From Anaerolineales bacterium (lineage in GTDB: Bacteria > Chloroflexota > Anaerolineae > Anaerolineales > Villigracilaceae), in contig JAFGCG010000108.1 of NCBI GenBank assembly GCA_016932715.1, positions 1 to 64,000 on the forward strand: a stretch of 64,000 bases of DNA, read 5' to 3'. Positions 38,026 to 42,214 of the stretch are shown in pieces. The notes under the pieces were generated by a model, which was given only the letters and a program-made list of their open reading frames with translations, was not told where the DNA came from and did no database searches. Made by a program: the position numbers and the translations under genes. The first letter of the stretch is position 1. Each line of letters begins with the position of its first letter.

Positions 38026-40818
38026 TTATTTCAGCCTCTCTACCACTGCTTTTGCCACCTTATCCATCGCATCGTTCATCAGGGCCGGGTCGGGCAGGCT
38101 GCCTTGCGCCAGGTTGGGACGTCCGCCGCCGCGCCCACCAATGGAGGCGATCAGGTCGCCCGCTTTCAGCCCGCGCTTGACGAGGTCTTCGGTGACGACC
38201 GAGATCACCATCCCACCGGAGGTCAAAAGCGCCGCGCCATTCCTGGGATATTTCTCGCGGAACTTGTCCGCCAGGGTACGCAAAGTGTCCACGTTCGAAT
38301 TCGGAACATCCAGCGCCATCACATGGACATCCTTCACGGTCTGAACATTGGAAAGCTGCTGATTGAACGCGGAGAGCGCCTGCGACGCACGCAGGGAAGC
38401 GACTTCCTTTTTCAGGTCCGCAGCCTCATCCTGCAGGCTCTCCACTTTGAAGGGCACCTCTTCGAGGGATGTTTTCAGCACTGCCGCAGTTTGCTTGAGC
38501 AGTTTGAAGCGATGTGCGATCAGGTCATACGCCCCGCGTCCGGTCACCGCTTCGATGCGACGCACACCCGCTGCAGCCGACCCCTCGCTGACAATCAGGA
38601 ACGCGCCGACATCGGAGGTCCGCTCGAGGTGCGTGCCGCCGCACAGTTCATAGGAATGTTTCGGCATCTTTTCCATCACAGCCGTTGGGTGCGCAATGAT
38701 TTCATTCACCTCGAGAGCAGCAACATCCGATGGCAGGGTGATGGTGACCGTCCTGACGGTCTCACCATACTTCTCACCGAAGAGAGCCATGGCGCCCTCG
38801 GCGATCGCGTCCTCGCGGGCTTTTAGTTTGGGAATGACTTCCATATCAGACGCAATCGCCTCATTGACGAGCCGCTCGACGCGTTCGACCTGTTCGGGAG
38901 TCATCGCTTCAGGATGGTTGAAGTCGAAGCGCAGGCGACCGGGCGCGACCAGGGAGCCCGCCTGCCGCGCATGTTCGCCCAGCACTTTGTGAAGCGCGGC
39001 ATGCATGAGATGAGTTGCCGTGTGATTGCGCATGATGTCATGACGGCGCTGCATATCCACTTCGGCAATCACCAGATCACCAACTTTTGGCTGACCTGAA
39101 ACAACTTCGCCCACATGCACGATCACACCCGCCGAAGGACGGCGCATGCCGGTCACCTCGATCTCCCACGCTTCGCCTCCGCTCACGCTCCGCTCAGCGT
39201 GAATATAACCCGTGTCATCCACCTGACCACCGGACTCGATGTAGAAGCCGGTCTTGGGCAGAATGACCTCGACCTGATCGCCAAAGGAGACGGACTCTAC
39301 GGACTGTCCGTTCACGATCAGAGCAAGGACTTCGCCTTCGACGCGCGGTGAAGTATAGGGGTCGTATTCAACACCATGTTCACCGAGTTTCTTTTTCTTT
39401 TGCAAATCCTTCAAAATGCCTGCAAAGAATTCGGCGTCCTCCCCGCCAAGTTTGCCCATCGCTTTGCCGCCGCCGGAAGCAAGACGATGCTCATCCATGG
39501 CGAGGCGGAAACCAGCCTCATCCACGTCGAGGTTTTGCTCGCGAGCGATGTCGCGGGCGATCTCGAAGGGCAAGCCATAGGTCGCGTACAGGTCAAAGGC
39601 GCGGTGACCATCGAGGCTGGTCTGGTTCGAGCCGCGCAGCTCCGAGAGGAGATTCTCAAGATGAGCGGTACCCGACTCGACGGTCCGCGCGAAGCGGACC
39701 TCTTCCCGCGTCAAATTATCGAGGATCGCGCCGCGGCTTTTCACCAGTTCGGAATAGAACCCGCCGTATTCCTCGATCACGGCCTCCGCCACTTTGGCAA
39801 GGAACGGCTCGTGCAGCCCAATCTTGGTACCGAAGCGAGCCGCACGCCGGATGATCATGCGCGTGACATAGTTCCGTCCAACGTTGCCGGGCACGACGCC
39901 ATCCGCGATCAGGAACGCCGCCGAACGGACGTGATCGCAGATGACGCGATAGGGCGTGAAATCTGCATAGACTTGCGCTTCACTATGGCCCGTCAGTGAA
40001 CGCAGAACGTCGAGCGAACCTGTAAAGAGGTCGGTCTTGTAATTCGAGTCGACGCCCTGCAGTATGGAGACGATGCGCTCGAAGCCCATGCCGGTGTCCA
40101 CATGTTTGGCGGGCAGCGGCTCGAGGCGGCCATCGTCAAAGAGATTGTATTGAATGAAGACATTGTTCCATAGTTCGAGGTAGCGCTGGCAATCGTGGTT
40201 GACGCCGCAGACATGCCCCGGCACATCTTTCTTGTCGCAGAACTCTGCGCCGCGATCATAATGGATTTCCGAGCACGGACCGCAGGGACCCGTCTCCGCC
40301 ATCTGCCAGAAGTTTTCCTTGCGTCCGAAGAAAAGCACGTGCGATGGGTCGAACCCGGGCTGTTCCTTCCAAATGTCCGCAGCTTCGTCGTCGCGCGGGA
40401 TGTCCCCCTGGTCATCCTCGAAACAGGTGGCGTAAAGCCTGTCTTTGGGCAAGCCCCAGACATCGGTGAGCAGCTGCCATGACCAGGCAATTGCCTCCTT
40501 TTTGTAATAATCGCCGAACGACCAGTTGCCGAGCATTTCAAAGAAGGTGTGGTGCGCATCGTCGCGGCCCACGTCGTCGAGGTCGTTATGCTTGCCGGCG
40601 ACGCGCATGCACTTCTGCGAGTTGACGGCGCGCTTATACGGGCGTTTGTCGGTACCAAGGAACACTTCCTTGAATTGCACCATGCCCGAGTTGGTGAACA
40701 GCAGGGTCGCATCCCCACCCGGCACAAGCGACATGGACGGCACAACCGTATGGCCGTGCTCGACGAAGAAATCTATAAACGTCTGGCGAATCTCGTTCCC
40801 GGTCAATTTTTTGGTCAT
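38026..40818 (-). CDS. alaS: Alanyl-tRNA synthetase
   Basis: TGNEIRQTFIDFFVEHGHTVVPSMSLVP...FTNSGMVQFKEVFLG; NHTATHLMHAALHKVLG; ELCGGTHLERTSDVGAF. Confidence 0.97.
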   Translation of the reverse strand: MTKKLTGNEIRQTFIDFFVEHGHTVVPSMSLVPGGDATLLFTNSGMVQFKEVFLGTDKRPYKRAVNSQKCMRVAGKHNDLDDVGRDDAHHTFFEMLGNWSFGDYYKKEAIAWSWQLLTDVWGLPKDRLYATCFEDDQGDIPRDDEAADIWKEQPGFDPSHVLFFGRKENFWQMAETGPCGPCSEIHYDRGAEFCDKKDVPGHVCGVNHDCQRYLELWNNVFIQYNLFDDGRLEPLPAKHVDTGMGFERIVSILQGVDSNYKTDLFTGSLDVLRSLTGHSEAQVYADFTPYRVICDHVRSAAFLIADGVVPGNVGRNYVTRMIIRRAARFGTKIGLHEPFLAKVAEAVIEEYGGFYSELVKSRGAILDNLTREEVRFARTVESGTAHLENLLSELRGSNQTSLDGHRAFDLYATYGLPFEIARDIAREQNLDVDEAGFRLAMDEHRLASGGGKAMGKLGGEDAEFFAGILKDLQKKKKLGEHGVEYDPYTSPRVEGEVLALIVNGQSVESVSFGDQVEVILPKTGFYIESGGQVDDTGYIHAERSVSGGEAWEIEVTGMRRPSAGVIVHVGEVVSGQPKVGDLVIAEVDMQRRHDIMRNHTATHLMHAALHKVLGEHARQAGSLVAPGRLRFDFNHPEAMTPEQVERVERLVNEAIASDMEVIPKLKAREDAIAEGAMALFGEKYGETVRTVTITLPSDVAALEVNEIIAHPTAVMEKMPKHSYELCGGTHLERTSDVGAFLIVSEGSAAAGVRRIEAVTGRGAYDLIAHRFKLLKQTAAVLKTSLEEVPFKVESLQDEAADLKKEVASLRASQALSAFNQQLSNVQTVKDVHVMALDVPNSNVDTLRTLADKFREKYPRNGAALLTSGGMVISVVTEDLVKRGLKAGDLIASIGGRGGGRPNLAQGSLPDPALMNDAMDKVAKAVVERLK

Positions 40819-40881
40819 TCATACTCCAAGTGAGCTAGTGGCGGAATTATACCAAGCCGCCAAAGATGAAAGAAGATAGAT

Positions 40882-40916
40882 AACAAAAAGTCCCGAACCT
40901 GGTACAGATTCGGGAC
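40882..40916 (-). terminator. Leader intrinsic terminator (attenuator) upstream of alaS
   Basis: Minus strand GTCCCGAA (40916-40909) / TTCGGGAC (40897-40890) then TTTTTGTTA. Confidence 0.88.
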
Positions 40917-40936
40917 CGGAAGGACAAAGGTACGTC

Positions 40937-41029
40937 TCACGCTGTCACAGGTTCACAGAGCAGTCCCAGAGCTTGGGCTGCGCTCGTAGCCAGGGCAGCG
41001 GCGGCATGAAATTTGAGTTCCTGTTTCAT
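40937..41029 (-). CDS. Ala-rich leader peptide of alaS: MKQELKFHAAAALATSAAQALGLLCEPVTA
   Basis: 30 codons, 9 Ala, translated by hand; ATG 8 nt downstream of TATAAT (41043-41038); upstream of the terminator. Confidence 0.75.
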   Translation of the reverse strand: MKQELKFHAAAALATSAAQALGLLCEPVTA

Positions 41030-41034
41030 AGGGC

Positions 41035-41046
41035 GGGATTATACCA
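41035..41046 (-). promoter_or_regulatory. Extended -10 promoter of the alaS leader
   Basis: Minus strand TGGTATAATCCC. Confidence 0.7.
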
Positions 41047-41342: not shown

Positions 41343-42214
41343 ACCAATGGTGCTAGTTCAGAGTGAAAATTCGGCGATGCTCATTTTGAAAGGATCAGCT
41401 TCAGGATGGCGCAAGTGAAACAAATCCAGAAGGATGTTGAACATCGCCACGACATAAGCCAAGCGCATCTGAATGTAAGCGGACAGACGATGTCGGATAC
41501 GTTTCAGATCGCAGACGGTGGTCAACATCGAAAAGACCGTTTCGACACACATCCGCTCATTCCAGGTTCCTTTCTTGCAGATTTTCAGGTTTTCTGGCAC
41601 ACCGTCTTTGTCTCGAAAACCGAAATCTGCCAATACGATGGTTTCACCAATGAAGGGCGTAACCACGGGATGAAAGTGCTTGTCGTTCACATTCATTGTC
41701 GCCCAATCCCAATTGACGACGCGACACACCTCATTCAACAACATACAAATCTTGATCCCAATGCTCCACCGTCCTTTGTCGCGACCCTTTTTTCCAACTT
41801 GTTGTTTGCTCCGTCCCTCCCGGATCGGAAACAGCAACTCAACGGGATAACTATCGATCACAGTAAAGAAGTTCGGAGCCGACAACAGCAAATCACACCA
41901 ATCCTGATGGGTCTTGAGCAGACGTTGCAAGCGTGTCCGTTCTGGTAAGGTCCCATCGCCAAACCAATCACCATAATCCCGCTTCAGCCAACGATAGAAG
42001 GCTCGAAAGTGACCGCCTTTCAATGCAAACAGAATACCAATTGTCACCAACTCACTCGGATATAACTTTGCCTGAGCATGTCGAGGAATCGCAGGCAGAG
42101 AAGTTGCAACCAAGTAGAAAATGTGTAGGATAATATCCTCTGTAGTCATGGGGTGCCTCCTCGTAGGTTTCAGCACCCTTGAGGATACCCCATGACTCAA
42201 CTAGCACCAAAGGT
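41343..42214. mobile_element. 872-bp insertion sequence, probably IS982-like
   Basis: TIR ACCAATGGTGCTAGTT / AACTAGCACCAAAGGT (14/16); candidate TSD taata at 41338-41342 and 42215-42219. Confidence 0.85.
41358..42149 (-). CDS. DDE transposase (IS982-like)
   Basis: FFTVIDSYPVELLFPIREGR...ETIVLADFGFRDKDG...MCVETVFSMLTTVCDLKRIRHR; ATG 42149 after GAGGAGG. Confidence 0.85.
   Translation of the reverse strand: MTTEDIILHIFYLVATSLPAIPRHAQAKLYPSELVTIGILFALKGGHFRAFYRWLKRDYGDWFGDGTLPERTRLQRLLKTHQDWCDLLLSAPNFFTVIDSYPVELLFPIREGRSKQQVGKKGRDKGRWSIGIKICMLLNEVCRVVNWDWATMNVNDKHFHPVVTPFIGETIVLADFGFRDKDGVPENLKICKKGTWNERMCVETVFSMLTTVCDLKRIRHRLSAYIQMRLAYVVAMFNILLDLFHLRHPEADPFKMSIAEFSL

Follow-up and report, generated by a model that had tools for sequence, protein, structure and literature searches.

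The window, the whole 64,000-nt stretch of Anaerolineales DNA that was analysed, carries alaS on its minus strand (38026 to 40818, ATG at 40818), and the features described here lie on that strand. The gene encodes an alanine--tRNA ligase of 930 residues (NCBIfam TIGR00344, 853 bits, E 2e-256) and is preceded by a Shine-Dalgarno-like GGAG at 40824 to 40827; a sequence of this kind is found at 50 of the 51 leader-bearing loci described below. A putative promoter, P1, with the extended -10 TGGTATAAT (41038 to 41046), lies 8 nt ahead of the ATG of a short leader ORF, MKQELKFHAAAALATSAAQALGLLCEPVTA plus stop (40937 to 41029, ATG at 41029, TGA at 40937), which has Ala-rich homologues in front of the alaS genes of relatives. 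The first Ala run of this ORF, GCC GCC GCT GCC (40994 to 41005), comprises the candidate control codons. A conserved element termed region 2, GAACCUGUGACAGCGUGAGAC (GAACCUG...UGAGAC, 40934 to 40954), is located at and after the end of the ORF. It is followed by an intrinsic terminator, GUCCCGAAUCUGUACCAGGUUCGGGAC-UUUUU (40885 to 40916), whose stem spans 40916 to 40890 and whose U-run spans 40889 to 40885. Such a terminator is present in 51/51 leaders, 42 to 196 nt from alaS. Finally, a second putative promoter, P2, with the same extended -10 TGGTATAAT (40846 to 40854, TATAAT at 40851 to 40846), lies on the alaS side of the terminator and could serve alaS independently of an attenuator. The extended -10, the 8-nt spacing, the Ala-rich ORF with its run of four, the terminator and the second TATAAT had all been described in an earlier note on this DNA, correctly to the base. 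Since the extended -10 stands only 8 nt before the leader ATG, the P1 transcript is probably leaderless, starting at the leader AUG or no more than one or two bases away from it. Directly upstream of the leader lies a transposase ORF (41358 to 42200, minus strand) with a weak, sub-cut-off match to the IS982 family (NF033520, E 2e-14).

The leader ORF of the window contains 9 Ala among 30 residues, including the run of four; with an Ala frequency of 9%, 29 codons would contain 9 or more Ala with a probability of 7e-4. Among the nine leaderless-like short ORFs of the window, the alaS leader alone reaches at least 20% Ala. The 51 leaders together have 1411 residues, of which 408 are Ala (29%); in the long ORFs of the window the share is 9.4%. 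The commonest leader type has a peptide consensus of about MKQTFKPSATAQAAAATCATCEPATA before the stop, and in the window's genus a second Ala cluster (S-A-A-Q-A) follows the first run. Codon usage was analysed in 35 leaders anchored on Q or R followed by at least three Ala. Codon +3 is Ala in 35/35, partly by choice of the anchor, and is written GCC 17 times, GCT 14 times, GCG 3 times and GCA once. Codon -3, which lies outside the anchor, is Ala in 26/35 and uses three different codons. Codons +1 and +2 are almost always GCC, which fits an extra pairing constraint there. GCC and GCT make up 82% of the leader Ala codons in the 51 leaders; their share is 47% in the window's long ORFs and 49% in the alaS genes of congeners. 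This bias possibly reflects the reading of a single tRNA-Ala isoacceptor.

We collected alaS loci through AlaRS from 18 genomes of the genus, 152 of the family and named relatives, along the lines of the comparison of alaS upstream regions that the earlier note had proposed. The complete layout (P1, Ala ORF, post-Ala element, terminator, P2, alaS) recurs with its Ala enrichment at 51/114 testable alaS loci of the family and in 8 of its 21 genera. Looking for a wider spread in the class, we retrieved by the same criteria no Ala leader from 38 alaS upstream regions outside the order (0/38). No leader was detected at the other 63/114 family loci, and the leader is therefore dispensable. On a weakly resolved AlaRS tree its distribution is patchy yet clustered, requiring 22 changes against 37.7 when shuffled. 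In 48/51 leaders, 7 or 8 nt separate TATAAT from the leader ATG; the remaining three have 6 or 9 nt. A chance origin of the ORF, with two promoters and an ordinary terminator around it, was considered, as short GC-rich ORFs are often Ala-rich. The 51 conserved leaders with their 7-8 nt promoter spacing, the Ala residues kept with synonymous variation and the 0/38 result outside the order refute this explanation, to which we give practically no credence. Read from the sequences, the layout is not a product of chance, and its conservation as a whole in 51 leaders is the decisive basis for this conclusion.

The 213-nt leader folds with -66.6 kcal/mol (z -2.09), and the terminator forms a hairpin of 12-13 bp. 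In the main type of leader, the element that follows the Ala run, GAACCUGyCACGGCuUGAGAC, is complementary to two partners. The first is the terminator: GAACCUG together with GG.UUG.GAC faces CAGGUUC together with GUC.CGA.CC, and 92% of these positions are paired. In the window, the corresponding antiterminator consists of GAACCUG with CAGGUUC of the 3' arm and of the GAC end of region 2 with GUC of the 5' arm. The second partner is the Ala-codon strand itself. This protector pairing joins CGGCUUGAG to CUCAAGCCG with 93% of cells paired and is possible in most relatives; the window has a shorter version, CGCUG with CAGCG. When the partners are slid by 1-3 columns, pairing falls to 16-49%. Duplex energies of region 2 compared with a mononucleotide-shuffled region 2 are mildly significant on their own, and within the main type the values are nearly alike for a leader's own partner (-19.3) and a swapped one (-18.6). 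Covariation within the main clade does not reach significance, since the bases of this conserved element hardly vary, and we claim no structural proof from it. In one leader, an A-U pair is replaced by G-C on both sides at one position.

Divergent subtypes have a different terminator, with an antiterminator rebuilt to match. The pairing is UGAGCCGG with CCGGCUCA in leaders L134 and L176, GCCGGGAU with AUCCCGGC in L144, and GGAGCCCG with CGGGCUC in L053. The last belongs to a more distant relative with 53% AlaRS identity (isolate GSL_GB14_7, JAGXKM010000022.1). Its leader, MMAMHRKQPSRMNIRKPAAASKAAAAIMLAAALKILMEPEKPDL plus stop, has three Ala runs (AAA, AAAA, AAA) and its own terminator, with no visible P2 box, and judged by its sequence appears independent of the others. 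In the window's genus, an extra strand, CGGGACUG, can pair with the 5'-arm segment CAGUCCCG. This pairing belongs to the minimum free energy structure of the congeners L006, L009 and L019 when the ribosome is at or near the Ala clusters.

In 48/51 leader-bearing loci, P2 has an exact TATAAT at a distance of 24-41 nt from the alaS ATG, on its upstream side. The earlier note had suggested that basal alaS expression could bypass the attenuator through this second box. Because P2 is conserved, alaS does not depend on readthrough, and an attenuator would adjust its expression rather than gate it, probably tuning just the share contributed by P1. The conservation of P2, the many relatives that have P2 alone upstream of alaS and the similarity of the peptide throughout one genus would also suit an independent small gene, encoding a small protein or an sRNA with its own terminator, that lies upstream of alaS by chance and leaves alaS to P2 only. 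We regard this as improbable. When 399 genomes of the order were searched with a covariance model of the leader, the strong matches all lay upstream of alaS, bar one degenerate duplicate, and a motif search of the window's own genome for a second attenuator of the same type returned only this site and one match with three mismatches. Ala content is moreover a trait common to divergent peptides such as that of L053, and the 3' element is complementary both to the terminator arms and to the Ala-codon strand, neither of which a plain terminator needs. The degenerate duplicate, L282 (G108:C369:30721-30824), is a second leader copy in genome G108, located before the gene for a 463-residue membrane protein that adjoins alaS. 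It retains the promoter, the terminator and the last part of region 2; its Ala codons are gone. Weak matches of the model in other families were rejected as attenuators; they lie beside unrelated genes and resemble matches to terminators.

We computed how the terminator depends on the position of a ribosome on the leader. The RNA was masked to 12 nt past the start of the A-site codon, and each state was scored by the free energy difference between structures with and without the terminator. Over the 51 leaders, the mean advantage of the terminator is 6.5 kcal/mol with no ribosome, 1.3 kcal/mol with a ribosome at the codon that opens the Ala run, 0.35 kcal/mol with one at the codon that closes it, and 9.7 kcal/mol with a ribosome at the stop codon. 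In 51/51 leaders, the advantage is more than 1 kcal/mol larger at the stop codon than at the last Ala codon. The advantage is minimal at or beside the control codons: the A-site codons at the position of weakest terminator include Ala in 41/43 main leaders, and in 24/40 leaders the element lies 19 nt away, counted from the first base of the final Ala codon. As any exposed strand lowers the terminator advantage, region 2 was dinucleotide-shuffled as a control. Stalled leaders fall below these shuffles with a mean z of -2.42, 47/51 of them below -1, although the sequences are related and their z-scores thus non-independent. When the upstream strand is shuffled instead, the mean z is +1.71, so that the real strand protects the terminator. 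As a class, the leaders thus possess an antiterminator that excludes the terminator and is freed when a ribosome occupies the control codons, and a protector pairing that favours the terminator when no ribosome is present.

For the window taken alone, the exclusive antiterminator is marginal. The terminator is favoured by 9.8 kcal/mol in the free leader, by about 4.5 to 6 in the stalled one and by 9.5 at the stop codon, and against shuffles the window member has a z of -1.63, with 5/60 shuffles equally good. The window's own member is weaker than the class average. Since its stalled state still favours the terminator, switching there would depend on the order of co-transcriptional folding. The earlier note had proposed GGGACU, within the ORF (40962 to 40967), as a candidate antiterminator strand that can pair with GGUCCC of the terminator. 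This pairing is strong in congeners. In the window it is a weak 6-bp duplex that competes with a local hairpin, which mostly captures the strand. Its pairing probability of 0.26-0.54 is transient and confined to the time before transcription of the 3' arm. It is thus better placed as a secondary strand, the main conserved one being GAACCUG...UGAGAC (40954 to 40934).

Taken together, these results make it very likely that the leader works as a transcription attenuator of the ribosome-mediated (peptide-leader) kind. It would match the P1-driven transcription of alaS to how much charged tRNA-Ala is available, and it should raise alaS output when charged tRNA-Ala is short. The earlier note had made this proposal, and the conserved Ala codons and terminator, the leaderless promoter spacing and the switchable pairings all speak for it. 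The parts, their conservation and their complementarity can be read off the DNA; we infer from them where the transcript starts, that the leader is translated and its RNA terminated in the cell, and that there is a response to Ala-tRNA. The P1 message would begin at or near the leader AUG, and a 70S ribosome would start on the leaderless RNA. With plentiful Ala-tRNA, the ribosome would reach the stop codon and cover region 2, the terminator hairpin would form and the polymerase would halt about 140 nt from the start. With scarce Ala-tRNA, the ribosome would stall on the Ala codons and leave region 2 exposed, free to bind the terminator arms, and the polymerase would continue into alaS. When no ribosome is present, the Ala-codon strand of most members may capture region 2, and this pairing would again favour termination. 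P2, 3' of the terminator, would provide the basal supply of alaS.

Chloramphenicol-type drugs favour a penultimate Ala, and some drugs stall ribosomes at Ala runs. A leader of this design might thus sense slow translation in general, or the stalling that antibiotics cause on Ala-rich nascent chains, and not the charging of tRNA-Ala; the folding results would be identical whatever causes the stalling. We hold this for very unlikely, more so than an independent small gene. The gene under control encodes the cognate synthetase and is no resistance gene, and the GCC/GCT bias suggests that a tRNA is sensed, although pairing constraints could also explain that bias.

T-boxes control aminoacyl-tRNA synthetase genes, including alaS in Firmicutes, through tRNA charging. 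They bind the tRNA directly, unlike the proposed alaS leader; none was found upstream of alaS here. Neither a T-box, searched to E 10, nor another Rfam RNA matches the leader site, and no T-box reaches the gathering score at the alaS loci of 20 relatives. The window's own genome has seven T-box (RF00230) matches (L296-L302). They precede ileS, valS, leuS, trpE and a trpB-like gene, one lies 0.4 kb upstream of pheS, and the seventh has no assigned gene. A peptide leader at pheS was ruled out, as the genus has a T-box there. T-boxes of ileS, trpE and trpB-like genes are known in Chloroflexi (PMC2494555). If the attenuator reading is correct, one genome divides its synthetase genes between two sensors of tRNA charging, the T-box and the leader peptide.

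Classical enterobacterial attenuators (trp, his, pheST) combine control codons, 1:2, 2:3 and 3:4 pairings and an intrinsic terminator. The alaS leader shares these elements and differs in its leaderless start, its target and an antiterminator strand for which both terminator arms are partners. Actinobacteria have known leaderless attenuators, namely leuL2-leuS and trpL1-trpE (PMC8079986, PMC1262725). As presented there, they likewise have a leaderless ORF with cognate codons, followed in leuL2 and trpL1 by a hairpin and U-run before a synthetase or biosynthesis gene. They serve other amino acids in another phylum, whereas a second promoter between terminator and gene is found here. The mycobacterial polycysteine uORFs, also leaderless with a run of cognate codons, are described as acting on the translation of their operon (Canestrari 2020, cited in PMC13236596). 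A translational attenuator of this type, which would have no intrinsic terminator, was rejected here, where the terminator is conserved.

A peptide attenuator for alaS was thought new in the earlier note, but AlaL, a leader peptide MNVIGRNIFATARATSSPVAAA upstream of alaS, appears in a 2021 RNA-seq-based listing of attenuators of Streptomyces lividans TK24 (PMC8079986). It is likewise a short Ala-containing peptide before alaS. It comes from Actinobacteria and has no run of four Ala, and its entry in that listing describes no terminator or antiterminator. Compared by eye, the listed peptide shows no evident likeness to the Anaerolineales leader beyond Ala, so the two are probably of independent origin. 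A 2010 paper stated that no peptide attenuators were known beyond Proteobacteria and Actinobacteria, save for its own hisS leaders in Firmicutes (PMC2965389), and we found no report of one in Chloroflexota in the open-access literature. If true, the alaS leaders would be the first well-supported family of peptide attenuators in Chloroflexota. They would extend ribosome-mediated attenuation to this phylum and make a comparative-genomic case for alaS, where there was one little-described precedent before. It appears to us an even question whether Anaerolineales evolved its own leaderless Ala attenuator for alaS, perhaps more than once (the main, CCGGCUCA and L053 types), to do the same job as the T-boxes of ileS, valS and leuS, and possibly reading tRNA-Ala(GGC) alone through GCC and GCT. 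The 51 natural variants and the duplicate without Ala codons make the evolution of a leaderless attenuator directly testable.

Two further variants were observed at these loci. In L017, which lies upstream of alaS, and in L186, an ORF of 71 residues ending in ...HYEPATA, which is possibly DUF4926-like, stands in place of the Ala leader. A similar GAACCTGCCACGGCGTGA element and a terminator come after it, and its EPATA end resembles the ends of the leaders. In the relatives L118, L160, L146 and L172, REP-like inverted repeats, GTCATTGCGAG...CTCGCAATGAC, are inserted between the terminator and P2.
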